Part shown: positions 6,601-53,138 of the stretch, piece by piece
Layout: each line of letters starts with the position of its first letter
Position numbering within the stretch: the stretch's first letter is position 1
From: Dysidea avara
Lineage: Eukaryota > Porifera > Demospongiae > Dictyoceratida > Dysideidae
Direction of reading: 5' to 3'
DNA: 64,000 nt
NCBI RefSeq assembly: GCF_963678975.1
Contig: NC_089275.1
Location: 21,947,977 to 22,011,976, forward strand
Translations under genes and position numbers: made by a program
Notes under the pieces: generated by a model
Told to the model about the DNA's origin: nothing
The model's database searches: none
The model's input: only the letters and a program-made list of their open reading frames with translations

Positions 6601-9600
6601 TTTCATGGTATATTTGCTCCAGTTTAGTCAAGTTCACAAACCCCGCCTCTCGTATCAACCTTTCGCGCTTGTCAAACTTCTAGCTAATACACATCAGTAC
6701 ACCCACTATGAATAAGCCAAACCTTATATTCCATAGCGGTAGGTTTACTACTCACCAGTAAGCAAAACATGTTCTTATAAAATATACTCCCGGTACTGTG
6801 TACAGTATAAGGGGTGCAAAACTCGGATAGATTAGGTGGCGCTTAGAAGTTTCCAATCCAGTATGGGGTGTCTATTATCTATGGTTCAAGCTTGTGTATT
6901 TACTTTACACTTTATGTGTAACACACGGCTGTTTAGTGAACATGTGTTTCTGTGCAGCACTTAATAGTAGTCAATCATACTCTCTAATGGAGTGTACAGT
7001 TTGTAACAAATACTCTAATTAAACAGTAACTTCCTATTCACGAAGTCCAACATTTGGGTAGTTAACATGGAGAGTGACAGATGCTCCAATGTTTAAATAT
7101 TGTGTTTCCCTCCTTGATACAAGTTATTTAATGAAAGATTGTAATATTATTATAACGGCGTCTGTTTCATGTAGAATGATGAGCTAAAGGAGCAAACAGT
7201 TATAGAGGTCACTGCTGAAGGCTGCACTTTTAGTGACTTTGGTATGTAGTAAATAGCAACAGAAAGTTACCAAATGTGAGGAAGGATGTTACTTTGCAAA
7301 AACGAACCTGCAAAAGCAGGGCATGTGGGTATCCCATCTCAATGACAGGTCACATCTCAGTACTGCCACAGAATATCTGAATTGTGTAACTTATCTTATA
7401 GATGCTAGATAAGTGTGTGACCATAGAGCATGATGACACAAAAAGTTAAGTGATAAAAGTTTTAAATGTTAGCAAAAAAATTTAGGTGGCCACATGCCCT
7501 ATATTTCATTGGCACTTTCTTTTACCACATTTACTCTGTGAATTGTGTAGCTGCTGTACATGTAAATGTGTTCACTCATTACACAATCAATCATGTGATT
7601 GCATTCTGAATGCTACAGTGTAGATGTTAACACTTCTGCTAAAGTTTTGTTCGTTGTTGTAATATGTGTATGTAATTCCGTCACCATATGGGGTAACCAG
7701 GTGTCCTGGGAGCAATTCCCTTCTCTCCCCCTTATTGGCCAATGCCCGTATCAGAATTGAAATACTCCAATAGAACAGTCACATACTGTATTGTATTGTA
7801 TTAATGCTTTACAGTGACCAGCACTGAAGGTGAACTTAAGATGGTTCCACTGTAGAAAAGGCTTTAAAAGGTTCCTAAGATGGAACCTTTTTTAACTTTA
7901 ATAAGCAGGTAACTTTACAGACATGCGAAAATATAAACTTCTCACTTGGGAAGTTATAAGTTGATCACTATTGAGAGATGGCCTTTCTATACAGGACAAT
8001 AAGCAGGGCAAGTTTTACTGTACCTCACCTAAAGGTATTCCCTCACACCCCTCAAAATTGTATCCATGTGTGTTGTACTACTTTGATTGCCAAAGATGCA
8101 CCCTTTGCTGAATGTTTTATACCATTCAATTTTTGATTAGTTAAGTTGCACTTGCTGTATAGGTGTTTGATAGTGGTAGTGCTGGGTGGTATACTGGTAT
8201 ATTTCTCATTTACGATATTAAGCTAATACCGGTATGCATACCAGAATGTCAATCAACATACCGTCGTATCATTGAGTGGTACTGTAATGCTGTGAGCAGA
8301 CACCTCTAAGGGATTAGTAGCATTTTAATTGAGTTTTTGCTGCTTATAAAGTGGTGACCACATGCCCTGCCCTGAATACACTCTGTGGTTGCCTATGTTG
8401 TGTGTCACCCAAAGTACATACAGTAAACAAATTCTGTGGTTAAGATGCAGCTGCTTGTAGCATGTTGTGACTTTATAACCTATTGACCATTCATTAGTAG
8501 CTTTTCCTTGTTGGATGACACCTTACCACCCTTTGTGCTTTTCTTGTCTCTTACTTTTTACTATGAATTTGATGATGTAGTGTAATATCATGATATTTAG
8601 TGTACATGATATAACGTTCTCATTTTTTCAATATTGCCACTAGTGTCTGGTCACAACTACATATTGGACATACGTATGCTGCCACTATAGTGGCAGCATC
8701 AACCAAATTGCAGCTTTTATGATATTTGGCATGTGACAAGCCGCACCAGAGATGCTATGCATGATTAAGTGTCAACTGGGAACTCCCAAGCAAGTTTCTT
8801 CTGTTAGTCAAGTACAGTAGCACAGCCTAGGGCTGCGCCTCTGACCGCCTAGTTGGTTCAAGCTCAAAGCAAGGTTTGAATCCGTCAGTTTATAGGATCA
8901 CCATGACAAAACCCACATGATTCAAACAATAACAGCTAGTATTTGTCAGACCCTTTTATACCAAGTGCCACCAGACTTGTCAAAAAGGGAGCATCATAAA
9001 AGGGTCAGCAGCACCAGACAATCCCTACTCATTGGCCTTCTCCATCTCCCCTGTCCTGGTACATACATTCAATGTGTTTTATACATGTTCTCTGTGTGCC
9101 ATTAACTGGCTCTTTATTTTCAGAGCACAGCAAGTTTTGTTCTGATTGGGCACAAGTCCTTCTCAGCCAGGGAGCTACGAATACTGACCCTTTCTTCCTT
9201 AAACAAGCTATTGAAAATTTTAAACTTAAGGTAAGTTGGTAACAAATACAAGACGTTTTATTATTTTTAAATTCATTTGCAGATCATCCAGGATATAAAT
9301 GCCTTCAAAAGACTGATACAAAAGGCTGAAGCAGATTATTACTCCTTATACAAGTATGGAACATATTCATATGATATTTCTCACTATTGTCATTGTGACA
9401 CAGTGGGGCTTCCACAATATTAGGGAACTACATATATTTGAGTTGGGATCATAGAAATGAAAAGCAATGAAACAACCTGCAGCTATAATTGTGGATATTA
9501 ATTTCTACTTTAGTTATACACAGCCTGTCAATAATATGGCCGTGGTTGAAGTACTGTAGGGATTAAATGTCCACTAGTATAGCTGCAGGTGTAGACGACT

Positions 9601-10813
9601 TTGTGAAAATGTAATTTTTCCTTGTACTTTTCTTTTGTAATACCATATACATACAAATTTTCAAGTGACATGATTTTCATGAATTTCGTGATTGGTTGGC
9701 TTTTCCACAAATTTCATCCTCAATAGACCCTCAGTTATCTAATCCTCGTTTTTCCATAGCTATCTGAAATTAGAAATGACTGTTCTATTAGAGTATTTTG
9801 AGTATAGGTGTATGTTCTATTAGAGTATTTCAACAGAGCTCTGTATATAAATGTATGGGCTTCAGTTATCCGAAAAATTCACTTATCTGAATACTTTTAT
9901 CATTGCCTGAGACACATTGGGGTTCGTATAACCATGGGTTTACTGTATCAGGGTTAGCTCTATGCTTTCTAATACATAGGTTATCTTAGTGAAAAACAAG
10001 TGATCCTTAAAATAAAATTGCAATAAAATCGCAAAAAAGCTGAAATTTGTCAATCTGCAAAAATGTATGTATACATGTACAGTACATAATTGTATGCCAC
10101 ATCAAAGGAAAGAATGGCAAATAAACAAGCATCTTGACTCTTAATTACTGAAACGTGAGATGCATGGCTGTTTCCCTCTGTCTTCAGCTATGCTACACCC
10201 GTTGTATAGCATTACAAAGAAAAAACACTTCTGCAATTACATAATCTTCTCACTATAGAGATTGTAAGTCATAAGAAGCTACTCACAAGTCAAAGTCAGT
10301 GATGCATGCATTTTAGTTGCTGCAGTTGGTAGAAAGGCACACATTGAGTCTAGTTGACATCGAACAGTAAATACACCGTAAATAAGCCCTGTAGTGTTAG
10401 GCTGAATATGTATCAGTTAGTCAGTACATTTTCTTAAAATTCTATAGAAACTTGTTGGAGGTAATGAGGATTATACTCTGAAGGCATAATTATGCCTTAG
10501 CAATACTGTCAAGCTGTCATGTAGGAAAAGTGAGGCAGGTTTTTGCATGATAATTTTGAGCAGAAAACCCCAAACCTTTATGATCCTTATTAAGCAGCAC
10601 TACCATGCTGTATGACATATGTACATGCTCTCTACATTCTATAGGTCATATTTGTTCCTCTGTGTGTGTGGAAATGGTCAATTACTGATAGACTGTGCCA
10701 TCAACGAGGCTAATTCTCTCACTGACTCCTCCTCCAGTTTGGCGGTACTAAAGGTACTGCAAGAATACACAAAAAGGAATGGCTTCCGATCTGTAAAATC
10801 TATGCAGATTTAA
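678..10813 (+). CDS. C17orf75: Njmu-R1 / C17orf75 homologue (WDR11-complex subunit), copy 1, 5'-partial in window
   Basis: Twelve exons were read by eye: 678-740, 1005-1130, 2043-2129, 3112-3147, 3503-3549, 3962-4030, 5395-5456, 6155-6200, 7175-7241, 9124-9230, 9283-9353 and 10645-10813 (stop TAA). All have AG/GT borders. Reading phases agree at every junction except exon 4 to 5, where one small exon or another border is missing. The conceptual protein resembles vertebrate C17orf75 (Njmu-R1) by memory: an ISLSLD stretch near the N-terminus, then FCSDWAQVLLSQGATNTDPF, then an ENFKLKIIQDINAFKRLIQ stretch, and YLFLCVCGNGQLL near the end. In vertebrates this protein joins WDR11 and FAM91A1 in a complex that captures endosome-derived vesicles at the trans-Golgi. 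The vertebrate N-terminal segment was not found, so the first exon is probably beyond base 1. It is convergent with the kinase-kelch gene. Confidence 0.8.
1860..1909. mobile_element. Solo terminus of a TA-flanked pogo/Tc1-like MITE
   Basis: The sequence ends GGATTAGAGAGGTTTGACTG followed by TA. Read on the minus strand this is CAGTCAAACCTCTCTAATCC, a typical end of TA-targeting pogo/Tigger MITEs and the same pattern as the more complete elements at 12016 and 22844. The matching left terminus is not clear, so this is a fragment inside a C17orf75 intron. Confidence 0.45.
2098..2116 (+). repeat. In-frame GAT run encoding an Asp stretch
   Basis: A short ATG/GAT trinucleotide run inside the third recognised C17orf75 exon encodes about five consecutive aspartates (NDNDDDDD). 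It lies in a poorly conserved loop of the protein and is likely to vary in length. Confidence 0.6.
3388..3452 (+). repeat. Interrupted (TG)n microsatellite at the duplication edge
   Basis: TG repeats broken by TAG triplets sit just inside the left edge of the segmental duplication. The second copy (36540-36572) has fewer repeats, so the tract has changed length since duplication. Confidence 0.8.
6242..6276. repeat. Perfect 14-bp inverted repeat with 7-base loop
   Basis: GAACTAATGGTTCA at 6242-6255 and its reverse complement at 6263-6276 are separated by TAACTGG. The right arm runs into the target duplication of the transposon starting at 6280. The same hairpin is kept in copy 2 at about 39341-39375. 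Confidence 0.85.
6280..6883. mobile_element. 604-bp TIR element, 7-bp target duplication (copy 1)
   Basis: The ends are inverted: CATAGATAATAGACACCCC on the left, its complement GGGGTGTCTATTATCTATG on the right. Homology extends inward through a CTGGATTGGAA block. GTTCAAG flanks both ends (6273-6279 and 6884-6890). No coding frame is seen, so it is non-autonomous. It is in both copies of block A (copy 2 at 39379-39956), so it inserted into the C17orf75 intron before the duplication. Confidence 0.8.
8676..8699. repeat. Perfect 24-bp palindrome, copy 1
   Basis: ATGCTGCCACTA followed by TAGTGGCAGCAT reads the same on both strands. It lies in a C17orf75 intron and is unchanged in copy 2 (41729-41752), although a base a few positions downstream differs. 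A protein-binding site or a small foldback relic are both possible. Confidence 0.8.
9724..9945. mobile_element. Pogo/Tc1-like MITE with CTCTAWTAGAG motifs (copy 1)
   Basis: The right end is GGGTTTACTG then TA. The left end (TAGACCCTCAGTTATCTAATCC) is a degraded inverted match. Interior text with TTATCCGA and TTCACTTATCTGAATA resembles the elements at 22844 and 30600. Two copies of TGTTCTATTAGAGTATTT sit at about 9781 and 9813. It is present in copy 2 at about 42775-42984. Confidence 0.6.
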
Positions 10814-12015
10814 CTGAACCTGTATCTGTATCCTGACATAAACTATGTATATGTATCTGTACATTTATTTGTGTGTTTATATGTATGCCTGTGTTATGTG
10901 TACAGTATACATATCTATGATGAAGAGTACATATGTATGTACATACATAAGGTAAAATGATTAGTACTTGGAGTCTAAAATAATATCTTTTAGTTCATGA
11001 TGATAAAATACCTCAATCACTACCAACCTGTCCTCAACCCATAGGTGGTGGAAAGGGGGGGCTGAAGCCCCCCCCTCAGAATGATATCACGCCGAAATTA
11101 TCCTACTTGGAGTGGGGCTAAAAACCGTGATAAAGATCGATATACTCTAATAGAACGCTCAAATACCCTAATAGAACAGTCAAGGCCTTCATAAAAACGT
11201 GTTTCTTAAAGTAGCTTTAAAAAAAAGTTGCCTACAGCAGGTACCTCATACATTAAGAGCTGGTACTGTATCAAGTGTTTCCAGGTGGCTATAGGCTGTT
11301 TATAAATAGCCTGTTTGTACTGCTTATAAATACTTTATGTTCATCAACCCTATAGTCAACAGCTAAAAGCTTTTCCAAAAATATGGCAAATAGCCTGCTT
11401 TAAATAGTTTTGAGGTGTTTCAGTTAATGCTTTAATTTGTACCTATAAAATTGCAATAAATTAATTTTGGTGAACTTTGAGACATTGTGAAAGCTAAAAT
11501 GGCTACAGCTTCTGGGGGCACAGCTCCCCAGACCCCCTGCCCACCCCCCCCCCCCCCCCCTTGTATCAACTACTTCCTCCACCACTGCCTCAACCATGGT
11601 AGGTGATAAGTGATGTAGTATGGATCATGTTTTGCCAAAAGTTTATCAAACACCTGAACAAAAAAAAATCACACATGCATAGCTTTATGGTCTCTTCTCT
11701 GAATTGCATTAATTTTGTAGATTTTGATTGAAATTGCCACCACCCATTCCTGAGATATAAATATTTTAATTCTGTTTTCTTGTTGTGTGTGTATATTATA
11801 AGCTTTCTTTTCACATCAGCAACACAACTCAAAATGCTTGCGTGTGCTGTGCCAACTTTGTTGGCCACATTGCATATACGGCAAGTCTTGAGACAGTCAA
11901 GCTATAGTATGGTCTTCACTAGGTAAAAGGTGAAAATTAAAAGTACAAACAGGTATCCATTCATTTATGGTCCTGTACCTTAACAGGCAAGTTGTGAAAT
12001 GTAAGTTTAATAATA
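10814..12015. other. Intergenic DNA between convergent genes, repeat-rich
   Basis: This lies between the C17orf75 stop and the 3' side of the kinase-kelch gene. It holds AT-rich 3' flank (10814-11030), a hAT-like element (11040-11587) and AT-rich DNA after it. No exon was found on either strand. Confidence 0.6.
11040..11587. mobile_element. hAT-like MITE, family 'CAtaGGCGGCGGAAAG', insertion 1
   Basis: The element begins CATAGGTGGTGGAAAGG and ends CTTCCTCCACCACTG. CCTCAACC is repeated on both sides (11032-11039 and 11588-11595), the 8-bp duplication typical of hAT elements. The interior has a G/C-run hairpin (GCTGAAGCCCCC), a block TGATATCACGCCGAAATTAT shared with the elements at 20705 and 52759, and two CTCTAATAGAA motifs. 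In copy 2 a deletion removed the left end, leaving only the right part near 44220-44290. Confidence 0.75.
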
Positions 12016-12502
12016 CAGTGAAACCTCATTATAGTGGCCAGGTCCAGCAAGTCCAAACGCATTTTCTATTATATTACATTTATTTCATTTTCAGTAATAA
12101 GGCCAGTGGCCACTACTACAGGACCAAACTAGTAAAACTAATACAATGTTCCTTCAATAAAGAGGCCAGCTGAGCAGGCAGTCAAGGTATCACTGCAAAA
12201 TTAAAGTTGCTGCATATTTTAACTACTGGAAGCTGTACCCATTATTCTGGCAATGTACTTCGTGCTTTTCCAACCATTATACTGTATGTCTCAAGTAATG
12301 TTGGAACAATTGGTTCCTACATACATTTCTCTGTGATAAACTCTACATAGCATGTTTAAATCAATTGTAAATTGCTATTGGTTTTGTTGAAAACCTTGCT
12401 GGTAATGCCACTTTGGTTTTATGGCCGCAATAATGAGGTTTTCGGTAATAGCATAGGGTCACTTATGAATCCCATAGGTGGCCCCATTACGAGGTTTCAC
12501 TG
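12016..12502. mobile_element. TA-flanked pogo-like MITE (copy 1)
   Basis: The ends are CAGTGAAACCTCATTATAG and, inverted, CAGTGAAACCTCGTAATGG, each bordered by TA. This is the standard pattern of pogo/Tigger-derived MITEs. It lies 3' of the kinase-kelch gene. The copy-2 element (44727-45145) is 68 bases shorter because of a deletion between direct ATTGGTT repeats. Confidence 0.75.
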
Positions 12503-12682
12503 TAGATTATAACGTACATGTAATAATTGAATGCCATGGCCAAGCAATCCAATATATATGTACATGCAATAAGTTATGAGATTATTCTGTACATATTCAC
12601 CGTAAAATTACCAATTATTATAATTCCTCAGTACAAACTATAGAAGTTACAAAACAACATGATCGTGTACATATATATATAG

Positions 12683-14585: not shown

Positions 14586-14618
14586 TTTAATTTGTTAGTC
14601 TCACTGCCACAAAATTAC

Positions 14619-14880: not shown

Positions 14881-14887
14881 ACAAAAT

Positions 14888-14935
14888 TACGTAATACCAG
14901 AAACAAAATAATATCACGTGACGATTGCAACACCG
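14888..14935 (-). promoter_or_regulatory. Possible promoter module with CACGTG E-box
   Basis: Upstream of the kinase-kelch gene lies TTACGTAATACCAGAAAC followed by TCACGTGA. A very similar arrangement, TTACGTAATACAGGAAAC then TCACGTGA, is found at 35345-35386 upstream of the Fringe-like gene, on the same strand. Copy 2 of the kinase has the first half but a deletion of about 28 bases has removed the CACGTG. That it acts as a promoter is inference from position and recurrence. Confidence 0.35.
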
Positions 14936-18354: not shown

Positions 18355-18363
18355 TCCTATGCG

Positions 18364-19865: not shown

Positions 19866-20221
19866 CAGGGCCGCCCAGAGAAATTAAGGGGCCCAGGGCA
19901 AAGAGTTAAAGTGGGGCCCTTGACCGAAGTTGTAAGGGTGAAGACCAAAAAAAAAAAAAAAAAAAAAAAGGTCACAACCTGCTGGCAATGACAATAACTA
20001 CCCATCACCAACCATATCTCCTTATCTATAAGCTTGCTACACTGCTCCTCTGAAGAATACTGTGACTGCTCTTTAGAGTATTTAGATCTGACTGCTCTAT
20101 TAGAGTATATCGATCTTTTAAACAGGCATTCAGGGGGCCCTTCATGGGGCCTCCTGGGGCCCCTTTCAGGCTGGGGCCCGGGGCAAAATGCCCCAGTTGC
20201 CCCCCCCTGTGGGCGGCCCTG
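19866..20221. mobile_element. hAT-like MITE (CAGGGCCGCCC ends), absent from copy 2
   Basis: The ends CAGGGCCGCCC and GGGCGGCCCTG are exact inverts, flanked by TGCATGGG at 19858-19865 and 20222-20229. Copy 2 has a single TGCATGGG near 60971, so this is a clean insertion. The 8-bp duplication and CAGGG ends fit hAT. Inside are a poly-A tract between GACC and GGTCACAACC (19949-19970) and two CTCTA-type motifs, one reading TGACTGCTCTATTAGAGTAT. Confidence 0.85.
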
Positions 20222-20704: not shown

Positions 20705-21075
20705 CATAGGCGGCGGAAAGGGGGGGGCTAGGGGGCTAAAGCCCCCCCTCGGTCTGCTGAAGGGGGGCTTAGCCCCCCCTCAGAATGATATCACACCGAA
20801 ATTATCTTTCTTGGAGTGGGGCTGAAAACCGTGATAAAGATCGAGATACTCTAATAGAGCAGTCACTCTAATAAAGTAGTCAGTGTGTAGCGAGCTATGA
20901 AAGGATTTTTATGTAGTTTATCAGCTAGAAATGGTAGCTGGTGAGGTGAAAAGCTCTTGTCAGTTGGTTGTGACCTTTTTTTTTTTTTTTTTTTTTGGTC
21001 TCACTTTACCAAACTATAGAAATAAATCTGGGTCAGCCCAGCCCCCCCTCATATCAACTACTTCCTCCGCCGCTG
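20705..21075. mobile_element. hAT-like MITE, family 'CAtaGGCGGCGGAAAG', insertion 2
   Basis: The element starts CATAGGCGGCGGAAAG and ends CTTCCTCCGCCGCTG, flanked by CTTGTGCA (20697-20704 and 21076-21083). It has CCCCCC/GGGGGG hairpins, the GATACTCTAATAGAGCAGTC motif, and a poly-T bounded by GTTGTGACC and GGTCTCAC. That last module is also found, inverted, in the element at 19866. It lies in a part of block B that has no counterpart in copy 2. Confidence 0.85.
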
Positions 21076-22843: not shown

Positions 22844-23061
22844 CAGTGCTCCCTCGATTATCCGACCCCTGTGGGACCAAGACATGTTCAGATAATCAAA
22901 AAGTTCGTATAATCAAAGCCCATTCATTTATATAGAGCCCTGTTCAAATACTCTAATAGAACATACATATTAGACAAGATACTCTAATAGAGCAGTCATT
23001 TCTAATGTTTGGATAACCAAGTGTTCAGATAACAGAGGTTTGGAAAATCAAGAGAGCACTG
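22844..23061. mobile_element. 218-bp TA-flanked pogo-like MITE with CTCTAWTAGAG motifs
   Basis: The left end CAGTGCTCCCTCGATTATCC and inverted right end CAGTGCTCTCTTGATTTTCC are both bordered by TA. The interior holds two motifs, AATACTCTAATAGAACA and GATACTCTAATAGAGCAGTC. It lies about 50 bases beyond the Fringe-like stop codon. Confidence 0.85.
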
Positions 23062-23108: not shown

Positions 23109-26100
23109 TCATCTTGGACACCATGATACACTTGGATACAGCAGACAATGATAAGCCATAAACCTGTACAAACTGGATAAATCCGAATGACACAAATGAA
23201 ACATCTCTCACCTTGTTATATCTCCTGGAATATTTGACTTTAGAGGTACTGCATTGGTAACTTTATGAGTCTTTGCATTCATTATGTAACTAACAGTGAG
23301 CTGTATGGAGAAATGTCTATGAATTCAAAATTTAAGCAAACACAACTAACAAATTTTGATATCTGTTCTTTGGAGAAATTACCCAATTTGTAAAACTGAT
23401 TATAAATACTATCAACTTCTGTTAGATTACATCCCAGCACTGCCCCTATAGTATTTATACCTTATAACACTGTACACACACACTATAGCAGTGTAGTTAC
23501 CGAAGATAAATCCAACTGTTATGTCATCAAAGTTTCCAGCAAGTTCACAACTTGCGATGAAATTATCTTTACCACTGTAGTGTGTGAAAAACATGTACAA
23601 CTACATACTACGGATCATGTGTATAGCCATTAAGTGTATGCAAGCCACTTGCACAGCATTTATGTATGGCTGCAGCAAATTCAAATCAAATGTCCCTACA
23701 ATTATGCAATCATCATTCATGCATGAAGGAATAAAAATAACTTCAAAACTAATTATTGTTCTACCGTATGTATCATGCAGTCTTCATATTAATAGTATGG
23801 TTTTGTGGCCTGTGGAATCTCTTTCACAGTAATGCCTAGGGAATGTCCATGTACTCATAGATATATAACGCAAACTGGGATCGGAAAAGAAAGTTGTGGT
23901 TACAGGTGCGTATCTATGTTTCACCTGAAGTAATGTTTTACCACATTGTACTATGGTGTACGGTCCAGTACTGTTGTGGTAAGCAGAAAATACATTGTAT
24001 CACATATCAATAACACATGGGAACACAGCAGAAGGTATTACAAGTCACTATGCCTAATTTGTAAATGATTTGTTACTTTGTCTGAGTGACGCATGTACCA
24101 AAGGGAATCCAAAACACACAATGAACAAAATAATTGTTGTTGCTTTGTCTTAAAACATACCAAAATGTAACAGTTTGCCAGTTACAACTGGACTAATAAA
24201 TAAAACACTTCTACAGCTTGTAATAGCATGAAAATGGCCTAACTTGAGCTTCTCTACTTATCTTGGGGTGTTCTCATGCACTTGTATACTTTATTAGTTA
24301 CAAGAGACATGGCCCGATACAACTCCAGTTTCAATTCTGAGTGACAATATTTATACAGATTAATTACTATAGCTATTTCTGTATTCTAGTACCATAATAC
24401 TTTTGCAAAGGTTATGCTGTAAATACTGTATGAAGCAGTCTGTCACATCCAGAAGTGGAGAAGTAAAACACAGATGGTTTCAAAGGAATTTAATTCCCAT
24501 TGTATGGTTTCTATGTAAAATTATCAACTAATGCTTCCAATCCAAGTAATCGTTAATTCTTGTCTCCCCAGTACATGGTCCAGTTTTACAAGTGACAGTT
24601 CTATTAGGGTAACTCAATCAACTACTAAGTGTGTCAACTTGTAAGACAATATAGCCAGAGCAAATTCACGAGTATTCATAATAGTGAAACATGCACAGGT
24701 AGGACAGATTACAAAAGAAGATAGAATTTGTCTGAAACTATCAATGTAACAACTGGCGGTCCCAATCCCCCCCACTCCAAACCAATCAATTAGGACTTGA
24801 TTGCCATCTCCTTGGCATGCATGGGAGTACTTTAAAAATTACACCTATGCACCTTTTGTTTTACAAGTGAAAAACCACAATTATTGTGTATACACATACA
24901 GGTTTGTTGCTTTGCCTTTTCAGGGCATTACTTCATTGATGAAAATCTTGCCTGCTGGTAAGATTAACGTAGCTTATAAAGTGTCATTGTTTTGGAGTGC
25001 ATTCATTATAATTTATGCACTAACCTATTGATACCAATCTACTATCGGCCCAAAGTACAAAATAATGCCGTTATTTACTACTACAAACTACTTAAGTTTC
25101 ATCATTCCATTGCAAACAGTTCAAGTTAAATTTTGATTTTATTTGTACATCTTGCCTTTGTATTTAGTAAGTTGCTTTCTGAGATGCCATTTGTAATTTA
25201 TGGTATTCTGGGCATGTACCTGGAAATTGGTCTACCAATCCACATTTGAAAAATCTTTAGCTACACTATTAGCATTTTTCAGGTACCTAGAGGGACAGTA
25301 TTAGTGGGAGAGTGAACTGTCATTAGGAATGGGATTACAGACAGATTAACTAGATGTACAGACTAACTTTAATAAATGTTCTCCTTTCATAATCAGTGCA
25401 CGACTTGCACAGTAGGTTGCACCAGTTGCATACTGAAAGATATCAGCCATAACTGTCTAAAAACAAAAATAGTGATCATACAAAGACATTCTTTACTGGC
25501 ATACTAAGTTCCTTTTGTGGATGCGGTTCTTTGCCTTTTCGTTAACCTAGAATGTACGCAGGGAATTGTAATCAGTCCATGTAGGAATTAAACAAATCAC
25601 TTACTGGTAGGTAAGGGTGTTTATCATACCGACGACGTAATATCCAAGGGTATCTCCCAATGTAGTATGGTTTACTAGGATCATACTGTTGTAGAACATG
25701 ACTGAGTTGTGGAACATTCACATATATATCATCATCAACATGACAATACCATTGGTATCTATGGAGTGATGACAATACCACACTGTTCATGACATCTAAC
25801 AACCACACCTGTCCTTGTTACCATTGTGTTTCTCTAAGGCTTTGTAGTATGAACTGAACTCCATACCAGTTTTACAGCACAAAGCTTTACTATATAACAA
25901 TAAATGAGTGAAGATTAGCATAGCAGTGAGATTTGTGCACCAGCACAAAGCTTGACATGTAATGATTGCGTCATAAAGATGGGAGCTGTTTTTCAGTCAG
26001 AGGCAGTGAGAGGAAAGGGCTAAAGAATGGGAAGGGGGAGGGGAAGGGGAAGGAAACTATTGCTAATGAAATTGAATGCAACAGCATTCTTGTTGTTTTG

Positions 26101-29100: not shown

Positions 29101-32100
29101 AAAAACGTGGCTGTGGACAATGGATTCACGAGGAGTGTGTGGAGAATGCTGTTACTGATGTGAATGGTGTAGTTAGATGTTGCTCCAACTGTGTTGTGTA
29201 ATTTTTGATTATGTAGTGTGCATGAAACACTGATTGTAGTATTTTATTATCTTTTAGTAATGTTGCACAATCAGTAATGAGTTTAAATTGTCTATAGGGG
29301 AATTTTTATAATCAACTTTATGGCTTCTATGGTTGAGTGGGTGATAGGTGTGAAAGTCAATATGTTAATCGTGAAAGCCAAACAAACACATCATCTGTTA
29401 CGTGGCAAAGTGTGGGTGAGTGGTGATAATTAGTCTACGCAAATATACACAGTGGCAATATATTGTACCGAGTGGCGATAAATGGCAATTGAAGATGCCT
29501 ACTTTAACTGCCATATCTTCATCATGGCTACTAGGATTCTTTCAAATCTTTAGGGAAGGGTAGACTGATAATGAAGGTTGGGATGGGTGAAAACAGAATC
29601 TCAAAAGTTTACGTGGCTCAAGTGTTATGGTGTTTTAAAAAGTTGATAGCGATAATTGGTGGCGTACGCTACAACAGTACAGTACTACCAAATTTCATGC
29701 TTTTATCCAACACTACACAAAATGGCCTTATAAAAACATTCTTACTATGAGTGATCACCTGGACAAGATGAAATAACCACATTAAACCCTGCATAAATAA
29801 GTACACATAGCATAACAAACATAGAGAAAATATTTCCATGTACCTGCTTTCTTAATTCTATCAAGATATGGTTTTCCTGCAGAAGCATTATCACTGGTTA
29901 TTGTTAACTGAATAATAGTGGCAGAATATATTATCAATATAAACATGTATTGTATGTACCTCGTCTTTATCTAAAAGTTGAAACCAAGTCAACATCGAAG
30001 GGAACAGCCTATCTTTGTAATTTTTCCCAGATGATTTCACAGAAAAGTATATATTATGAGTGTAGTTTGCATTAACTTTTTCCAATGGTTTGCCACTAAT
30101 TTTAATGGAAGTAACTTCTGGAGAAGTTTCTTTTTCATTAGTAGAAGTGGACTCTGCTACTTTACCATCAGTTTGTGAAGTAGGACTTGTATGATCAGGT
30201 AAATTGGGTGCTTTCTTTTTATTAACATTTTGATTTTGATTGGTAGAAGTGGGCTTCACTTCTTGTGGTGTGAGGTTAGTGTGATCAGGTTCTTCTTGAT
30301 TGTGATCAAGTTTATCATCAGAAAAACTTCCAAAATTGTTGATTGTGGTGTGCTCAACTACAAGTATGTCCTAAACACAATGAAGTATAAATCAGCAAAA
30401 GTACAATTATATAGGGAGGGGGGTATTAGACTGCTGAAAAGAGGTAGTCATAACTAACAGTTAGAACTCAAATATTATAATACAATTATCTGATATAAGG
30501 TAGACTCAAGGGGAGCCAGTTCTCATCAGTAACTCTTACAGATTGTATCTCTGCTGGAGACACAGACACTACAGCTGGTACAGTTGAATTCAATTATCAA
30601 CTTTAGAATGATAGGAAGTGACTGTTCTATTAGAGTATTTTGTCAAGTGCTCTATTGCAGTAAATGAACAGTGCTCCGTATAACACAAATGAGCTTTATT
30701 TATATGGACAAATTCACTTATCTGAATAGTATTACTGGCACAGTAGCTCATGTAAGGGAGGTCCCACTGTAGCTGGCAGCATCATTTCCAACAAAAACCA
30801 GACGATTCGACTACAATTATACTACATATTTAACCATAACATCACTAATAAAAGCACTTGTGAAGTGCAGATACTCTCCCGCTTTTAGCATGTAGTGTAG
30901 CTTATAGCTTGCATCTCATACAAGTTTTTATGATCACAGGTACTTTAGTAGCAGATTTTTGTGTACACATGAAGACATGCACAGAGTGATGAATCACCCA
31001 AGCCAATACGAGTGCAACCACTGGATATTTTATAGATGCATGCCTAAAATTTCCCTCAATTATGGGTCAGCAGCTAGTATGCTCTGGTTACGTTCGGTTA
31101 TGATGAATGGACAAATCCTAGAGATATAATGGAGAATTTTGGCTATGTGAGTTTAATGTTTTACGTTGACACTATAGCCTATAGCTATGTAGTTCATACC
31201 ACATTACTTAGTCAACTGACCACACTAGCCCTGAAACGATTAGAAATTTTACTATTTAGGAAATCCTGAACAAAATCTTTGCAGATATCGTAAGGATAGT
31301 GACATCATCACTTGTTGCCAATACATTTATTTACACCACCACAGTTGTATGTAACAAAATAACTAGTAAGTAGTATTTTGGTTCAGCCTATTTGGCATGC
31401 TCTGAATTGCCAACAGATTAAAGAGAAAGTTGTCATGCAATCAACCCTGTACGGATGAAGGCAATCGAAAGGTCCAGCAATAATATTTAGATCAGCACAT
31501 TTGACTTGCAAAACTTTCTAAAATTAGCAAGATCGGCATTATTGGTGGGTTTGACCTTGCTAAGAGAGTTTCCAAAGCCACACTACGGATGAATACAACT
31601 AACCATGGATACAGCTAGAGTTTAAAACATCACATTTGATATCCAAAATTTCTTCTACACAGTAAAACTTGGTTGAAAAAGGCATTTTTGGCAGGTTTAA
31701 AGTTCGCAAGAAAAACTGACAAACCAACCCTATGAATGAAGGCAAGAAGTAAACTTGCAGTTTGGCTCACAAAAGTTCCTGCAGTGAGTTTTTCAGATAG
31801 TAATGTTATGTAAAAACAATGTTCTGTGATCTGGAGCACAGCACAACAGCAGGAAATACTACAACATTTACCACAGTGATCACCTCTGAGCCAAGTAGTA
31901 CCTGTGTGCAGAATATGGTGTGGATTGAAGTTTTTTGACCATCTGGCTGAGACTAGATCATCCAATTCAGCTCTCAAGAGACTCAATAAAAACTGTAACC
32001 TCGTGCACATTAGCACCTTTAGCTAGGTGTACTGAATTATGGAAATGATTACTCAGAATGAGTATAAACTTCCAGTAAAAGCTTGATTTGTACCTTTAGG

Positions 32101-34710
32101 GCTGAATAGTGGCTCAACAATACAGAATAGTGATTTTATGGGTAAAGGAACTTTTTATGGCTAAAGAGCTATTGAATCATGCATTATACATAACACAATT
32201 TTCTATCCCTCATGCTATCAAAATTTTAATGGCACACAAAATTATGGTTAAAAAATGATCATTTTTATGGTTGTTGAGTTAGAATTTTGGTGACACTAAA
32301 CTACGAGAAATTACCTTCTCACTGTTCTGTTAACTATCTGACTGCTCTATTAGGGTGCCTCAATCTTGACGATACAATATTATAATATAGAGATTGTCAG
32401 AACAACACATTACAGTTTTGTAACTAGGACTTCCCACTGCTTTTTTGCTCGGTGTAAACAGAATTCTGTCACAGCCATATACTGCATGGAATGTATGCTT
32501 TACCAGTAGTGATAGCTTTGATATTACACATAAACGTAGCTGTTCTATCAAAAGTGACAAATATACTTGAAAGTCATTTTGTTGTAAGCTAACAGTTTCA
32601 TATACATGTTGGATTGATTGAAATCACTGCCAATAGACCTGGTTAAGGTGGTGCTCTTATGGTAAGGCAATCACAGCAGAAAGGTTTATGCTTCATAATT
32701 TGCCACATAGTAAAGTGTTCCAGCTGATGAATAGAATGGTTTTTGGTCATTGAGACCTATTCAGCTATAATTAGCTTACTGGTAATGCTATATGCAATTA
32801 GTGACGTAATCACACATACGTTACTTGTACACATACGTTACTTGTTATTGTTCTATGCCATGGCTACCAATGGAGCATAATAAGACTGATATCTGTAGAA
32901 CCACCTATGTTAAGCCATTACAAAAGCAATTGTGGCAAACCTATGCAGCTCTACAAGATGTTGTAGTTAATTCTACTGGTAAAAAACCATTTGACCTCTC
33001 TATTAAAATTGCATTTGGAATTGTTTGCAAATATTGCAACCTCAAAAATATTTCCCCTTGAAATAGCTATTTAGTAATCTTAGTCTGGCGCAGCCTACAC
33101 TTTTCAGATCACTTAATAATGCACCTATCAATGTATTGCCCCACCCCTCCCCCTCGGGCATATATGGGGCTATAGTGGGGATTTGACACAGCCTAATGTC
33201 AAATGCCCCATAGTAGAGCAAACCTATTGTGTCAAATCCCCACTGTTGGCCCCAGTTGCAACACGGGGATTTTACTCGGGATTTGACATAGCATGGTTGG
33301 AAAGTTACAACAAAAATACTTGGATGCTTAATGAACAATCGTCAAATGCCCTATAGTGGGACAGCAGTTTAGTGTCAATTCCCCCTGTAAAGCCCCACTT
33401 ACGCTCGAGAGGGAAGGGGGGTGGTGGGGCAATACATTGATAAGTGCATAATGCACCTATCAATATTAAGCCCCACTACCCCCCTCCCAGACATACATGG
33501 GGGAATTGATCCAATTAGATCTTAAAAATGGCCCCACTAGTGGGGCATTTGACTGTTCAAAAATTTTAGCACTTGCTTGACCCTTATAAGGCCACTCCAA
33601 ATAAATTCTCTGTTTCCCATCCACCGCCCGCATCTAGTTACTGACAGCTCTAAATATTCCATTATTTCATATTCTTCCATTATTTTCTGGTTATTCTTGC
33701 ATACTGAGAGGCTTAGTAAAAGCCATCTTGAAACAGTGTCAGCTCACGTGCCAGCAGTGCTATCGAGTTGGCACAAACTTCACGTTTGCACCATTTTTGC
33801 AACTTGAAAAGCTGAAGCATGCTTTTATGCAGCTTTTTATGGTTGTGCCAGGCAAATAATGGCTTGAAAAGCTGCCAATCTTATAATGAAATAATGGAAA
33901 TGAACCGCCCGCCCGCATACAAATATGCTTGAGTCTAGGACGGGAAACAAAGAATTTATTTGGAGAGGCCTAAGCTATGCACCTCCTGCAAGAATAACCT
34001 ACTTTCCCAAAGTACGGGATTTGACTACTCATCATGCCCCACAGGTGGGGAATTTGATTTTTGAAAATGTCAAATCCCCACCTTTCCCGGTAAGGCCCCT
34101 ATTCGGTGATTATTAGTTTCTCATCCAGCCTTTCTAATTATCATGATGCAGGCGGGAAGGTATTACCATTATTTTATATTAACACACTGATGTACAGACC
34201 TTGTCCAAATTGTCTTTCTTTCTTACTACAAACATTTCCTTCACCACTTTTCGTGATCGCCAACTGTTTTTCGACAGTCAACTGAAAGCCTGCTTTGATG
34301 AAGTCGATAGAGCACGATTGCAACTAGCACTGCAGCAATTTGCTAAGGAAAACAACAGTTCTCCTGGTGATATATAGCGCATTAATTGTAGCGTTCATCA
34401 ACAAAAATTATAACAGTTTGGTATCACGTGTTCTTCTGAAAAAAATGCTCAGAGTAAATAATGGCTTACCATGCGGTAGCTTAAGAAGGATGCGGGCGGT
34501 GGATGAGAAACTAATAATCACCAAATAGAGGCCTAATAGGTGCCATAATAAGGGTTGGGCGAACTGACCATGTACGTGTGATACACTTACAGAATGAACA
34601 AACACTGATGATGATTCCGGCGACCAGTCATACGTTAGTAATACCGCCACCACTACGCATACCATCCCGGTCATGCATAGTTGTATAGTCCGTAAATATC
34701 TGTCAAACAT
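23109..34710 (-). CDS. Fringe-like beta-1,3-N-acetylglucosaminyltransferase, ten exons, 408 aa
   Basis: Exons on the minus strand: 34591-34710, 29960-30370, 29844-29907, 25809-25884, 25605-25758, 25368-25456, 23501-23574, 23351-23445, 23212-23300 and 23109-23163 (stop TGA). The exons total 1,227 bases and all phases agree. The protein starts with a short cytoplasmic tail and a signal-anchor (CMTGMVCVVVAVLLTY), then an Asn/Lys/Thr-rich stem. The catalytic domain follows: IYFSVKSSGKNYKDRL, LCCKTGMEF, the metal-binding HVDDDIYVN, then YATGATYCASRAL. Near the end are LTVSYIMNAK and HCLLYPSVSWCP, which resemble the C-terminus of vertebrate Fringe. Length is close to vertebrate Fringe proteins. Known Fringes extend O-fucose on Notch EGF repeats in the Golgi; this substrate is inferred. 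Introns range from 48 bases to over 4 kb. The intron before exon 4 holds a pogo-like transposon. Confidence 0.9.
23575..25367 (-). other. Fringe-like intron 6
   Basis: About 1.8 kb of AT-rich intron between exon 6 (25368-25456) and exon 7 (23501-23574). A CTCTAWTAGAG-type motif (GACAGTTCTATTAGGGTAAC) lies at about 24595. No exon or complete repeat was recognised on either strand. Confidence 0.6.
26661..29669 (+). mobile_element. Pogo/Tigger-like DNA transposon, 3.0 kb, decayed
   Basis: TA (26659-26660 and 29670-29671) borders inverted ends: GCGTAGGCTGCCAATTATCG on the left and, inverted, GCGTACGCCACCAATTATCG on the right. Subterminal TTATCGCCACT phrases recur inside. The interior encodes the remains of one transposase-type protein on the plus strand. 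The element sits antisense within the intron between exons 3 and 4 of the Fringe-like gene, where splicing could remove it. Confidence 0.85.
26930..29201 (+). pseudogene. Pogo/Tigger-like transposase remnant with C-terminal PHD-like finger
   Basis: An N-terminal helix-turn-helix/CENP-B-like part is seen around 27050-27190 (TLRDRLSGR, PGPRPYLNE), then stops and frameshifts. The DDE domain is open at 27418-27957. It has NVDETL (Asp 28 of that frame; the family has DETG) and LLLDGHGFHY (Asp 134). The third acidic residue, expected before VxGPLK, is His 170 in TLHTAVYGPLK. A Lys/Glu-rich stretch follows at 28740-28900. Then comes a frameshifted Cys2...Cys-His-Cys...Cys2 finger (ECCECL, GCGQWIHEEC, CCSNC) ending at TAA 29199-29201. 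Such fingers are known at the ends of some animal pogo-like proteins. With these lesions it cannot be active. Confidence 0.85.
30600..30768. mobile_element. Partial pogo-like MITE with motif
   Basis: The right end GGGAGGTCCCACTG followed by TA is a pogo-like terminus, and TTCACTTATCTGAATA is shared with the element at 9724. GTGACTGTTCTATTAGAGTA lies near its left part. The left terminus could not be placed. Confidence 0.5.
33120..33448. mobile_element. TAA-flanked MITE with TGCACYTATCAATG ends
   Basis: TAA is found at 33117-33119 and 33449-33451. The left end TGCACCTATCAATGTATTGC and inverted right end TGCACTTATCAATGTATTGC match closely, followed by a C-rich block. The interior repeats ATTTGACA and AAATCCCCAC phrases in both orientations. 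The 3-bp TAA target suggests PIF/Harbinger, though the ends are not classic. Confidence 0.65.
33590..33970. mobile_element. PIF/Harbinger-like MITE 1 (GGCCACTCCAAATAAATTC ends)
   Basis: TAA is found at 33587-33589 and 33971-33973. The left end GGCCACTCCAAATAAATTCT and the inverted right end GGCCTCTCCAAATAAATTCT continue into TGTTTCCC. An inner block CCACCGCCCGCAT is shared with MITEs at 34094 and 47451. A TWA target and GG-starting ends fit Tourist/Harbinger MITEs. Confidence 0.8.
34094..34533. mobile_element. PIF/Harbinger-like MITE 2 (GGCCCCTATTCGGTGATTA ends)
   Basis: TAA is found at 34091-34093 and 34534-34536. The left end GGCCCCTATTCGGTGATTAT and inverted right end GGCCTCTATTTGGTGATTAT match and continue into TAGTTTCTCATCCA. 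On the right the inner block reads CCACCGCCCGCATCC inverted. No coding frame is recognised. Confidence 0.8.
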
Positions 34711-45145: not shown

Positions 45146-45323
45146 TAGATTATAACGTACATGTAATAATTGAATGCCATGGCCAAGCAATCCAATATAT
45201 ATGTACATGCAATAAGTTATGAGATTATTCTGTACATATTCACCGTAAAATTACCAATTATTATAATTCCTCAGTACAAACTATAGAAGTTACAAAACAA
45301 CATGATCGTGTACATGTATATAG

Positions 45324-47280
45324 TCACAATTCAAATGACCCTAACCATACTCTTGAAGTACCAACAAGTGGTCCTTCTTCACATCCTCCAATAACTACCA
45401 GACGATGGCTATCATCACACACCACAGCTGTAAATGATAAAGCTTCTGGAATTTTTGCAGATGATATCCATTCGGTGCTTATGGAATTGAGTGTAACAAT
45501 TTCATCAGAACTCCGACCATTGTTCAATAATAATCCTCCCAACACCAATAAGTATTTATTATTCAGAACAACAGCAGTTGAACTATTGTGTGGCATATCT
45601 ACTTGAAGACAATGCCATTGCAGATTGTGGTCAAATAAAGAGTGCAATGAAGAAGCATTAATTTTATTTTCAAGTTTATCCAACACATAAATCATATTCC
45701 CCAGGACAACTGCTTGTGGGTACTCTAGTGGTCGTGGTAGGTCATCACATATAAACCACTCACCAGTACTACCATCAAATAGCTCAACAACAGCAAGTGC
45801 TTCATCATGATAACCGCCAACCACAATCATCATGGAATGGTGGCTAACAGCTCCAACATAAGATCTTGCAGATGGCATTTCTGTGTAGTCTATCCACTCA
45901 CCACTCTCCAAGGCAAGTACCTTCTTAGTACACCTATCATTCCTGTCTAATCCACCAACAATTAAAAGTTTATTCATTAAGACTACCAGACTTATAAGTT
46001 GATGTGGAGTGTCAATGGTATCCCATTTATTAGTGTCAGAATAGTAAATGTCCACACAGTATATTGCCTGTTCTTTTCCATTACATACAGTGAAACCACC
46101 ACCCACATAAATTGACCCATTAAACATTACCGCATTGTGCATCAGTCTGCTTGATGGTGCTGGAGGACCTTCTTTCCATGCAATGGTGACTGGTCCAGCA
46201 AATAGATCAGGTGTGGTGGATTGCTGCTATAAGTATTTACATTATACATGGATGACATACTTTATAGATAAATTAACAAACCTGTAGATGCCTTGCACTG
46301 GATACTTGTACAGCCAACCAGGAGATAGGATCTATGCCATCAAAAGTGTTCTCTTTTCTACATTCCTCCACCATTCTCTTCATCCTCTGTGAGATATCTA
46401 TAGCTGAAGGACGCAACTCTGGATCATCTTCTAAACATCACAAAACTAATGGCTTTAAATCTGCATCACCTCCAGTCATCATGTCAATGTACTGTTGACG
46501 TCGCTCTACCTCTGATAAGCTTTTCCGTTTCCTTGTGATGGGATCAATTTGTGACCAAGATTTTGGAATAGGCCATTGTTGGCTGGTGATATGAAGGACC
46601 ACTCCTCCAAAAGAAAATATATCCAATGGTGGACCATACAGTGGTTTAATGTCTAATGCTTCTGGGGGCATAAACACAACAGTTCCTGGAGTTTTTGTCA
46701 GCGTCTTGCTATTTTGATCCATGATTGCTTTAGCCACACCAAGATCAGTAACTTTTGCTTCAAGATGGGTGCCAAGTAAGATATTATTTGAAGAAAGATC
46801 ACGATGAACAACTGGGGGACTGTGAGCATGAAGATACCTTAATCCAAGTGATACATCATGCAGTATTGAAAGTTTCACCAACAAAGGGATATTGTCGTGC
46901 TTATCTACCAGTGATGTCACACTCTCCTGCATCTTCTCCATCACCATAATAGGCAACCCAGACTCGTCACTTGAAGGATAGTGTATCCCCAGAAACGACA
47001 CAATGTTAGGATGTCGTAACGTGCTCCACAGATAGCATTCGTGTAAGAAATTATCTCTTATCGTAACTGCTTCTCTGGCATCAGCCAGCTCTAGTAACAA
47101 AGAGTGAATTTCTTTAGCAGCACACAATGTTCCGTCGTATTCGACTTCGGACACTTTTCCATACGCTCCATTTCCTAGTGACACACCCGTAAATGTTACC
47201 CTATCTCTAGGAATCGTGAGATATCGTAGAGATTCTACTGTCATTCCTGCTGCTGACGCAAGTGCTCATGAAGTCGCCAT
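45324..47280 (-). pseudogene. TKL-like kinase fused to kelch propeller, copy 2, premature stop after the kinase
   Basis: Exon 1 is 46282-47280 and exon 2 is 45324-46226, with a 55-bp intron. The first ATG (47280) meets TGA at codon 5. The next ATG (47244) gives a full kinase domain: glycine loop GNGAYG (24-29), Lys 44 in CAAKEI, Glu 69, HRD at 147-149, DLG at 167-169, PPE at 193-195. A TTA-to-TGA change at about 46436-46438 stops it after residue 268, just before the C-lobe end CLEDDPELRPSA. The kelch exon is open from an internal Met (46142) and has six blades. If read, the product would be a nearly complete kinase without the propeller. The lesions differ from those of copy 1, so each was lost independently or assembly errors are present. 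Confidence 0.85.
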
Positions 47281-47450
47281 TTTAATTTGTTAGTCTTACT
47301 GTCACAAAATTACGTAATACCAGAAACAAATAAATTTTTTTCAACAAGTGAAACACAACTCATAAAACAAAACAAAATAAATACGTGCTAGTGACCTCTC
47401 AGTTTTTATCGATAAAGCAAGAGTCATGGAGGAGCTCACCCTCGAGCTTA

Positions 47451-47845
47451 GGCCACTCCAATTGGTAATTATGTTTCTGGTCCACCGCCCGAATCCTTTG
47501 TGAAATTTCAGAAATAGCTACATGGGTAAGATGCCCGCATCAGCTTTTTGAAATACCTGGATTTCAGAAACAAATATTGCCGGGCTGCAACAAGTATGCT
47601 AGATCTAACTATCTAAGTGTCATGATTTGTATTTTATCAGTGAAAACCTGCAAGAAATATATAGGCAGAGTGCATCGTACGGATCGATATACTCTAACAG
47701 TATACTCTAATAGAACAGTCAGTAAATCACAAAAGTACTCTAATTGAGCAGTCACTTCATTGTTGCTTTGTTACTGAATTCCGCCCGCCCGAACCTAGAA
47801 CTGATTTTCAAAGGACCAGAAACATAATTATCAATTGGAGTGGCC
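47451..47845. mobile_element. PIF/Harbinger-like MITE 3 with CTCTAWTAGAG motifs
   Basis: TTA is found at 47448-47450 and 47846-47848. The ends GGCCACTCCAATTGGTAATT and, inverted, GGCCACTCCAATTGATAATT continue into ATGTTTCTGGTCC, with CCACCGCCCGAATCC inside on the left. It carries TATACTCTAATAGAACAGTC and a second variant (TACTCTAATTGAGCAGTC) at 47695-47755. Confidence 0.82.
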
Positions 47846-48952: not shown

Positions 48953-48983
<31 letters not shown>

Positions 48984-49001: not shown

Positions 49002-52000
49002 CTTATGGATTATCATTCAGAGCTCAACTGGAGATGCTATACAGAAGAACCTCAAAGGTTGCAAGAAGGAGATAAGAGTCTCTCAGTGATTGAGAATGCT
49101 GTCAGTAACAGCCAAGGGCAGATTTAGGAGGGTGCTTGGGGTGATGAAGCACTCCTCCTCCAAAATTTTACTATGTGCAAGCTAGGAAGCTACTAGAAGA
49201 TGCAGTACAGGTGCAATTGTACCTTATATATGCATACATAAGCAATGAAAAGACAGAAAGACCAAAGAGATTGGATAATCTCCTCTAAGAATTGGCAAGA
49301 AGGATTCTTAATGAGGTATGACTTAAATTAAAGCTGCTGGAAATCGAAATAATCTAATAGAACAGTCAAATACTCTATCAGAGCATCCATCATTAAACTA
49401 TTCTCTAAGACCAGTGTGTGAACTGAAATTGAACTTCATTTTGTTGACCTTTCCTCTGCTATTTCACAACTTGATTGTGCCAAACATCCTGCCACAGTTT
49501 TATATCATTTAATGCACTAAGTTATCAGTAATTCTTCTTGAAAAAGCTATTCTGAACACACCTTCTTTTGTTTAGTACATGGTGTACATTTTCATTTGTA
49601 GCTAAAACTGGATACTTACATTGAAATTCTTCCTCTTGCAATCATAACAGTAATTATTTTAGTGAATTTTTAAGATCTATAAAGTTAACAGGGATACAGC
49701 GTCTGGGAGCTGCACCCTTACTTGATAAGCTCTTTATCAACATAAGCAATGGATAATACACATGCACTATGTACCATTCCTTTAAATTCCAAAGAAGGTG
49801 CTCTGCAATATGCATAACCACATATATATGAATCAAATATTTACCAAAAGTGGTTCTAAAAGCGAAATTACCCTTCCTGGTGGAAATGAATTTTAAAATC
49901 TTTGAAACAGTTGCAACATAAATTCATTGGGCCTGTGGCTATGGTTTAGTATTAGTAAAAGTATCACATATGCAGCTTCTGGAGTTAGCACCCTTCAACT
50001 TTAAACTAAAATAATACTGCAACATTTATACTGTGCTCAGGTGCTAAAAAAAGGGGTTAGTTTTAGCCAAAAACTATAGTTGTATACTGTATATAGAACT
50101 AATAGAAGTGACTTGTAAATGGTGATAGGTTGAAATATATAGCAACCCACACCACAGAACAGTATAGCTATGAAGTCAAAGTTGTGTAGCAACATGTGCA
50201 TTTTAAACCTCTACCATATGACTAAAATGACCTCAAGATCCAATCCTGTGATACCCAAAATTTTCTTACAAATCAAAGTTGTAACTGCATAATTATTATG
50301 CAGAATCTTTATTCCCTTTGACAGTCCACTATATTTTGTACATTGTCTTGAAATCACATAACAAAATGCACTGTATGTAGTTCTGTGTTTCAATTAAAAT
50401 TGCTTCCATCTGACCCAATCTTTTATTAAGAATTCCTTCCAGCTCTCAACCTTTCATCTTTCAGTTCAATAGTTATTTGATTAAAATAGCTTCCAGATTC
50501 AATCTTGTAATAGCTAGCTATTTTTCAAAAATTTCCTAGGGAAGCATACCCCCCAGACCCAACAAATGCATGTATTATGTACTCCACACACTGGTGCATA
50601 CCCCTCCACTGACATTTTTATACCACCCAAGCCTAATCTTCACTATAACTGTTTGGACAGTATAATATTATTAACTATGAGACAACAGAGCACGAGCACA
50701 CTACACTTCAATTGATTAGTATTGCATGATCACGCATGCATGCTCTCCCAATCTTGTTCTTTAAGATGTAAAATAGTTATTTATAGCCACTGGCTGTGCT
50801 TTTTTACAAAAGTAACATTACAATTGCTATATAATTTTGTTATTATTATTATGTTTATGTGGCTCAAAGAAGGTACATATTGTGAGCCACTTATATGGTG
50901 ACATCATTTTTATTATCAAATTCAATCTCAGCAAGTTAAATTTGTAAAATTGTCTTGTGGGGGCATGCCCCCAGACCCCCTAGATGAGCATGTTCCACAT
51001 ACTGAGTGTGCTTTGTACACTGTTCTACAGTTGTACCTATCAACCATTGCCATTTTTCTTAGCTTCACATAATGCCCCTGTTAGCACACTCCTTCTGAAA
51101 TCCTAGATCTGCCTCTGTAACTGTGGTGTTACTTGTTTGATCACACACATGCAGCCTTCCTCAAGGCCAACTATGAGCACTTATGAGGAAACTATCATAA
51201 AAGTGTCAAGCTGTTAATCTCAGCCCCAAGGCCACAATCACTGACTGACGCTGGTCAATGCCTTCCTTTACTATACTTCAACAATCTCGGTTGTCTACAC
51301 TATCACATGGGCAAGTACAGTTTGGTATCTTATTACTTCAGTAAGACTTTCAATGATAATGATTCTGCCCTCAATGACTTCCCACCATAGAAAGGTAGGT
51401 GGGTGGGTGTGTCCCGTGTTCATGTGAGTATATGCTGGTCAACCAACTGCTGCATTCACTTCTTTGTTGGAAGCTGTGCAAGCGTTTTACACTAATCCAC
51501 TCTTGTGTGGAATTCAGTAACTAAAACCAGTGGCTTTCTGTACAAGTTGGAATCATCAACCTTTTTGGTGTCATTTATTATCTTTTTGGAAGTGCTATCT
51601 AATCTAAGTGGGCTGACGTGCAAATTCCAGGTGGAGGCTGTAGATGTATTGTATGCTATATGAGCACAAAAAGATGAAGCCACATTTAAGAATATGAGGA
51701 CATGAGGAGGAATTTGGTGGCTTCAGCTGGCTGAGACTTCAATAGCAGATTACAATAAGGTTGCTGTTATTATGGTTACTGTTACCATGGTAATACCTGC
51801 AGGCACAGATGGACCAAGTGTCATATTGACAAGAAACCTATGGGCTATGTAGTTAGTGTTGTTACATGGATGTAACTTTTAACCTACAGTTGTGAAAGTA
51901 TTTTACACAACCAATTCAAATCTCATGATCACTTCAGTCAACTCACCAATGGTTGTGAACACAGTTACAAAAATTTCTTAAATTTGTTGTATCGTATTGT

Positions 52001-52758: not shown

Positions 52759-53138
52759 CATAGGCGGCGGAAAGGGGGGGGCTAGGGGGCTAAAGCCCCC
52801 CCTAGGTCTGCTGAGGGGGGGCTTAGCCCCCCCTCAGAATGATATCACACCGAAATTATCTTTCTTGGAGTGGGGCTGAAAACCGTGATAAAGATCGAGA
52901 TACTCTAATAGAGCAGTCACACTAATAAAGTAGTCAGTGTGTAGCGAGCTATGTAAGGATTTTTATGTAGTTTATCAGCTAGAAATGGTAGCTGGTGAGG
53001 TGGAAAGCTCTTGTGAGCTGGTTGTGACCTTTTTTTTTTTTTTTTTTTTTTTTTGGTCTCACCTTACCAAACTATAGAAAGAAGTCTGGGTCAGCTAAGC
53101 GAAGCCCCCCCTCATATCAACTACTTCCTCCGCCGCTG
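52759..53138. mobile_element. hAT-like MITE, family 'CAtaGGCGGCGGAAAG', insertion 3
   Basis: The element starts CATAGGCGGCGGAAAG and ends CTTCCTCCGCCGCTG, with GTTGCTAT at 52751-52758 and 53139-53146. It is close to the copy at 20705 through its whole length, including the GATACTCTAATAGAGCAGTC motif and the poly-T between GTTGTGACC and GGTCTCAC, which suggests recent activity. Confidence 0.88.

Follow-up and report, generated by a model that had tools for sequence, protein, structure and literature searches.

Why should one short sequence recur inside DNA transposons of different superfamilies within a few tens of kilobases of a sponge genome? The question is raised by a stretch of 64,000 nucleotides of Dysidea avara (contig NC_089275.1, positions 21,947,977 to 22,011,976; hereafter the window), in which an initial annotation had pointed to a near-palindromic motif inside hAT-like, pogo-like, and Harbinger-like repeats as well as outside any delimited element. 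We find that this motif belongs to an asymmetric block of about 28 bp, which is carried, mostly in direct arrays, by many non-autonomous transposons. Our tentative reading is that the block would serve as a recognition site for a host DNA-binding protein and would be maintained by a benefit to the elements that carry it.

Matching the 20-mer core, TGACTGYTCTATTAGAGTAT, with up to three mismatches yields 21 sites in the window, against a mean of 0.01 in shuffled sequence. Seventeen of these are independent, and the other four are second copies that stem from a segmental duplication (40083 of 7010, 40844 of 7762, 42821 of 9777, and 42853 of 9809). Every site noted in the initial annotation coincides with a detected unit or is only a few bases away from one, and five matches (7010, 40083, 40844, 42821, and 42853) extend its list. 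Genome-wide (550.8 Mb, 108 contigs), the exact 20-mer occurs 22,563 and 22,520 times on the two strands, or 45,083 times in all, while the same pattern read backwards has no exact copy. This count is far above the 705 and 318 exact copies of a family-specific 19-mer and 20-mer that lie beside the array in the largest sampled group; a count no higher than the copy number of one repeat family was what the initial annotation had named as refuting its view. Allowing one mismatch raises the number of copies to 78,070, and a 27-mer that includes the tail of the block, TGACTGYTCTATTAGAGTATNTCGATC, is present 23,927 times. A motif-blind sample (ten contigs, with one ten-kb stretch at 3.0 Mb and another at 12.0 Mb of each) held 28 matches with up to three mismatches (15 exact), spread over 12 of the 20 stretches. 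Moreover, a profile of positions 1-17, built from matches in the same sequence on which it was run (these stretches and the window), returned 59 units above the score at which one is expected. No exact copy of the 20-mer was found in viral and prokaryotic contig collections, from which records near its own genome may have been omitted; the window contains no match to Rfam families at gathering score, and among the papers returned by literature searches no title or abstract opening reports such a motif.

The conserved block, TGACTGYTCTATTAGAGTATNTCGATCT, was bounded using 48 copies with distinct right flanks, kept from 90 copies that bear the tail. Information is limited to about 28 positions and is close to zero on either side, the sole signal outside the block being a slight G/C preference immediately before position 1. 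Position 7 is C or T, position 21 is loose, position 22 is T in 47 of the 48 copies, and positions 23-24 form a CpG that has frequently decayed. The near-palindromic character stressed in the initial annotation is incidental to this asymmetric block: the exact palindrome CTCTAWTAGAG occurs only four times in the window (0.05 expected), and the 158 exact copies in the sampled sequence are divided at position 7 between C (94) and T (64), the symmetry thus not being kept across copies. On these two observations a palindromic or cruciform site was rejected.

In all delimited carriers, the motif lies in the interior and not in the terminal inverted repeats (TIRs). Superfamily labels were assigned from termini and target-site duplications (TSDs) only; both agree with the labels given in the initial annotation, and by them three superfamilies or more hold the motif, namely hAT-like (8-bp duplications), pogo-like (TA), and Harbinger-like (TTA). 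Further hAT-like carriers were recognized in sampled stretches L001, L002, L005, and L016, and L021 contains another that is Harbinger-like; in many other arrays, even the top-scoring termini do not exceed what chance pairing would give. Also among the carriers is a large repeat that includes a minisatellite of about 30 bp and in which no TIR was found. Clustering 140 arrays by their 80-bp flanks gave 62 groups, the largest with 18, 16, 7, and 7 members, and 39 of them singletons; arrays with a best score below 15 or without 80 bp on both sides were omitted, as were the 40 loci of the decay sample considered below. An exact unit is present in 111 arrays, which occupy 47 of these groups, with a Chao1 estimate of about 125. 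The number of groups is uncertain because the clustering may have divided old copies of one family and because every locus chosen for an exact unit lies within the first 2 Mb of one contig. No flank 9-mer is present in more than four of the 62 groups, and the view that different superfamilies have the interior motif in common, and little else, is upheld.

Neighbouring units are arranged predominantly as direct arrays. Specifically, in the motif-blind stretches and the window, duplication copies included, neighbours share a strand in 33 pairs and lie on opposite strands in 2, with a spacing of 17-39 bp save for three pairs at 50-54 bp. Genome-wide there are 7,020 pairs in which TCTATTAGAGTA and a full unit lie no more than 30 bp apart, and a hand count found about 37 different linkers among the 100 pairs listed. 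The 140 sampled arrays comprise 48 with one unit, 69 with two, 17 with three, and 6 with four. Unit number is one or two within one hAT-like group, and the minisatellite-bearing group holds a 17-bp unit in varying number. Helical phasing with peaks at 21 and 31-32 was considered and rejected, as the pair list shows spacings of 20, 21, 23, 25, 27, 28, 29, 30, and 32. In one hAT-like group the motif stands head to head and not as a direct array (L001, L014 at 9446, L017 at 305-340, L033, L053, and L056).

Table 1. Motif units of the window and the elements that contain them, in order of position.
Feature	Position	Strand	Termini and target duplication	Units and remarks
Weak unit, three mismatches	7010..7029	-		No element delimited; duplicated at 40083-40102
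Single unit, one mismatch	7762..7781	-		No element delimited; duplicated at 40844-40863
Two-unit array	9777..9828	+		9777-9796 (exact), 9809-9828 (two mismatches); duplicated at 42821-42872; flanks resemble the pogo-like element at 22844
hAT-like candidate element	11040..11587	-	TIR CATAGGTGGTGG, TSD CCTCAACC	11142-11161, 11163-11182
hAT-like miniature inverted-repeat transposable element (MITE)	19866..20221	+	TIR CAGGGCCGCCCA, TSD TGCATGGG	Near 20063 (one base short), 20089-20108 (exact)
hAT-like MITE	20705..21075	-	TIR CATAGGCGGCGG, TSD CTTGTGCA	20846-20865 (exact), weaker unit at 17 bp distance
Pogo-like MITE	22844..23061	-	TIR CAGTGCTCCCTCGATTATCC, TA duplication	22948-22967 and 22979-22998 (exact)
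Degenerate unit, three mismatches	24593..24612	+		No element delimited
Exact unit	30619..30638	+		Right flank homologous to the pogo-like MITE group
Degenerate unit, three mismatches	32339..32358	+		No element delimited
Harbinger-like MITE	47451..47845	-	TIR GGCCACTCCAATTG, TTA duplication	47702-47721 (exact), 47735-47754
Unit, one mismatch	49349..49368	-		Weaker unit at 21 bp; no element delimited
hAT-like MITE, same family as 20705..21075	52759..53138	-	TSD GTTGCTAT	52900-52919 (exact)

The segmental duplication pairs window positions 3324-20545 with 36479-47313 and 56149-61302, in blocks about 92-97% identical (among them 3324-10986 with 36479-44010), and both copies carry reading frames for kelch-repeat, protein-kinase, and multi-helix proteins. 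The second copy of the 19866 locus, near 60970, is an empty site with a single TGCATGGG, which supports insertion of the 19866..20221 element. At 44010, the second copy lacks the left part of the 11040..11587 candidate, array included. The two hAT-like MITE families also have a poly-A/T stretch and its edges in common (19932-19988, 20957-21001, and 53016-53067), a hint that may be a second sign of interior pieces held in common between them.

What would place such a block within so many carriers? Its graded information, with loose positions 7 and 21 and a near-fixed position 22, looks like the pattern of a binding site. Judging from sequence, we tentatively favour the reading that the unit is a site for a host protein, with a core of about 20 bp and a weaker tail of 8 bp, carried by many non-autonomous transposons and kept by a benefit at the level of the element; three parts of this we infer, namely the protein, the benefit to the element, and how the site was captured. 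Among the causes that the initial annotation had offered, this one appears to fit best. The hAT-, pogo-, and Harbinger-like families, together with one or more large repeats in which no TIRs were detected, would each have gained the site; brief template switching in the course of repair is one possible route. It would then be kept, as an array of one to four sites in the same orientation, since its carriage helps the element, for example by holding it in accessible or insulated chromatin within reach of transposase, and bursts of the elements would have multiplied the site to over 45,000 exact copies. A recognition site would explain why a block with free positions persists while linkers and flanks differ, as well as why the arrays are directional. 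The copy number, the many flank groups, and the several superfamilies also speak for this reading. So do two comparisons: in the 22 copies considered below, substitutions number 18/175 in the linker and 7/440 in the last unit, and the genome-wide ratio of one-mismatch to exact copies is 0.73 for the motif versus 2.49 for a left-flank word, the latter being inflated by subfamily variants. Selection would act among elements and not on the host, which fits the weak constraint after insertion described below.

A more far-reaching version, which we regard as possible yet doubtful, is that the arrays are a communal cis-element. Non-autonomous elements of unrelated superfamilies would have exchanged arrays of a single 20-28 bp site, or arrived at them by convergence, and the site would be recognized by a host protein particular to the lineage. 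It would act as a pass to accessible or insulated surroundings that favours transposition under any transposase, exact sites would be seeded about every 12 kb, and the host may in turn use them as chromatin architecture. Should the site help elements of any superfamily, selection among transposons could act on host-factor binding and not on transposase recognition, and a long and specific site would be seen to reach tens of thousands of copies through many carriers simultaneously, with a bearing on how genomes acquire new chromatin-organising sites. A motif common to many families also makes element-level selection testable, through the comparison of intact with broken arrays.

Extra constraint on the motif after insertion is weak at most. 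In 40 loci fetched among 100 listed copies of a left-flank word, the last unit matches exactly in 25 and with one or two mismatches in 7 and 3, respectively, and the 20 bases after it are exact in 15. In 22 of these copies, selected for possessing both units, the first and last units carry 19/440 and 7/440 substitutions, the linker 18/175, and the 60 bases on the left 102/1290; the excess on this left side falls partly on a few sites that resemble CpG or subfamily differences. Set against the pooled flanks, conservation is higher in the last unit (p = 5e-6), and the first unit shows no clear difference (p = 0.08). A comparison across seven families (7/520 in the last unit, 45/1133 in the preceding 45 bases, and 128/1616 and 173/1821 in the flanks) is not relied on, as most of its loci were selected for an exact unit. 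Strong constraint at the level of the host was rejected, being seen neither in the substitutions of the 22 copies nor in the 40 flank-word copies.

Several points weigh against a protein-binding site. Five of the 40 flank-word copies have no unit within two mismatches, and the last unit is not clearly better kept than the 20 bases that follow it (7/440 and 14/439). The conservation of positions 1-20 is ascertained, being part of a search pattern that covered these positions, and weakly 22-25, and left positions 21 and 26-28 free. At exact-listed loci (n = 79) the tail CpG reads CG in 51, TG in 12, and CA in 9, and in view of these TG and CA variants it may be methylated in the germ line. Lastly, the motif occurs in neither of two transposase-bearing elements that we examined. 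The first, L014:780-3099, is a complete and perhaps still active hAT element (TIR TAGTGTTGCACCGATA, TSD CTCTAAAT) with an open transposase frame that includes a BED finger and a hAT dimerisation domain; the second is a pogo-like element at window positions 26659-29671, whose DDE_1 frame (27418-27960) is flanked by inverted repeats of 36 bp, 83% alike. A role as promoter of autonomous elements was rejected on this absence. Two further sampled stretches contain long open frames (L016:3-5291 and L018:2-3016), which we take to resemble polyproteins of long terminal repeat (LTR) retrotransposons.

The weak conservation after insertion and the two motif-less transposase-bearing elements make a functionless hitchhiking minisatellite the main rival, that is, a short tandem repeat taken up as filler DNA in the course of internal deletion or repair of elements and amplified passively by many families. 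Unit number does vary within families, a MITE family included, as such a repeat would allow; the unit is, at the same time, not confined to one family, being spread over the 62 flank groups of the 140 arrays. The large minisatellite-bearing repeat bears on how an array might be taken up. In L012:6600-10000 and in L017 (array near 2845), a long minisatellite of units of about 30 bp is followed by 230-bp units. The L017 array starts in TCAGGGTGACT, a sequence similar to ACAGGGTGA and other units of the minisatellite; its far edge is TCGAT, from which point there is homology to motif-less 230-bp units, so placing the array between the two repeats with short sequence overlaps at both edges. These overlaps match template switching at short homologies and are suggestive only, since L012, a relative in this group that is 71% identical over 2.4 kb and has no array at the matching place, differs by more than the array. 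Two features render passive hitchhiking somewhat unlikely in our estimation: linkers and spacings vary by family while the units remain constant, whereas passive capture should bring the linkers too, and single-unit arrays are frequent (48 of 140).

Common descent from one old array-holding element, with flanks since diverged or shuffled among non-autonomous elements, is less probable still. It is consistent with a left block, GCTACACTGCTTCTCTGAA, which hAT-like copies combine with three or more outer contexts, and with hAT-like groups being the most frequent in the sample. Pogo-like and Harbinger-like carriers in the sample, however, have the motif alone in common with hAT-like ones, the scarcity of shared 9-mers argues in the same direction, and the sampled carriers do not align into one element; descent of all carriers from a single element was what the initial annotation had named as refuting its view.

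We consider it very improbable that the motif is a recombination or gene-conversion site at which elements swap parts. Some array pairs are indeed homologous on one side only (20 on the left and 14 on the right, with 61 on both), examples being the window arrays at 11182 and 20865 and the pair L034 and L039. Yet among 69 pairs, which are not independent of one another, homology followed from the left fails to cross the array in 20, and homology followed from the right in 15. Both values are within the range of control boundaries (10/69 and 22/69), and a recombination junction at the motif was rejected on this basis. The interpretation first given to the motif is partly supported, with its recombination site left without support. 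Equally improbable is a tiny mobile unit of about 28 bp inserting on its own, with transposons among its targets, for which the sharp edges across 48 distinct right flanks would speak, but the sampled sequence holds no clean empty site (a genome-wide search for one was not made), the one homologue free of the motif shows differences well beyond 28 bp, information grades off within the block, and upstream units are often without the tail.

The host-protein reading finds its nearest known counterpart in the Brassicaceae, where E2F sites of 10 bp, which bind E2Fa, have been amplified by hAT, PIF/Harbinger, and MULE MITEs as well as by Helitrons (Henaff et al. 2014, in the account given in PMC12595863). 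In both cases, one short motif has been multiplied inside several transposon superfamilies. Compared with that account, with its short site and known factor, the sponge motif is longer (20-28 bp), stands in direct arrays, and amounts to 45,083 exact copies; a pogo-like element is among its carriers, and its factor is only presumed. In placozoans, Mutator TIRs are described as holding a loop-anchor motif linked to chromatin contacts (PMC12221973), likewise a sequence motif spread by a DNA transposon; there the motif is located, as described, in the TIR of one superfamily, whereas here it is interior and occurs in several superfamilies. Repeats and minisatellites born inside MITEs have also been reviewed (PMC9659126) and resemble the present arrays as short tandem units of variable number inside non-autonomous elements. 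In the cases as reviewed there each repeat is tied to a given element, whereas in Dysidea avara a single unit spans dozens of flank groups with different linkers.

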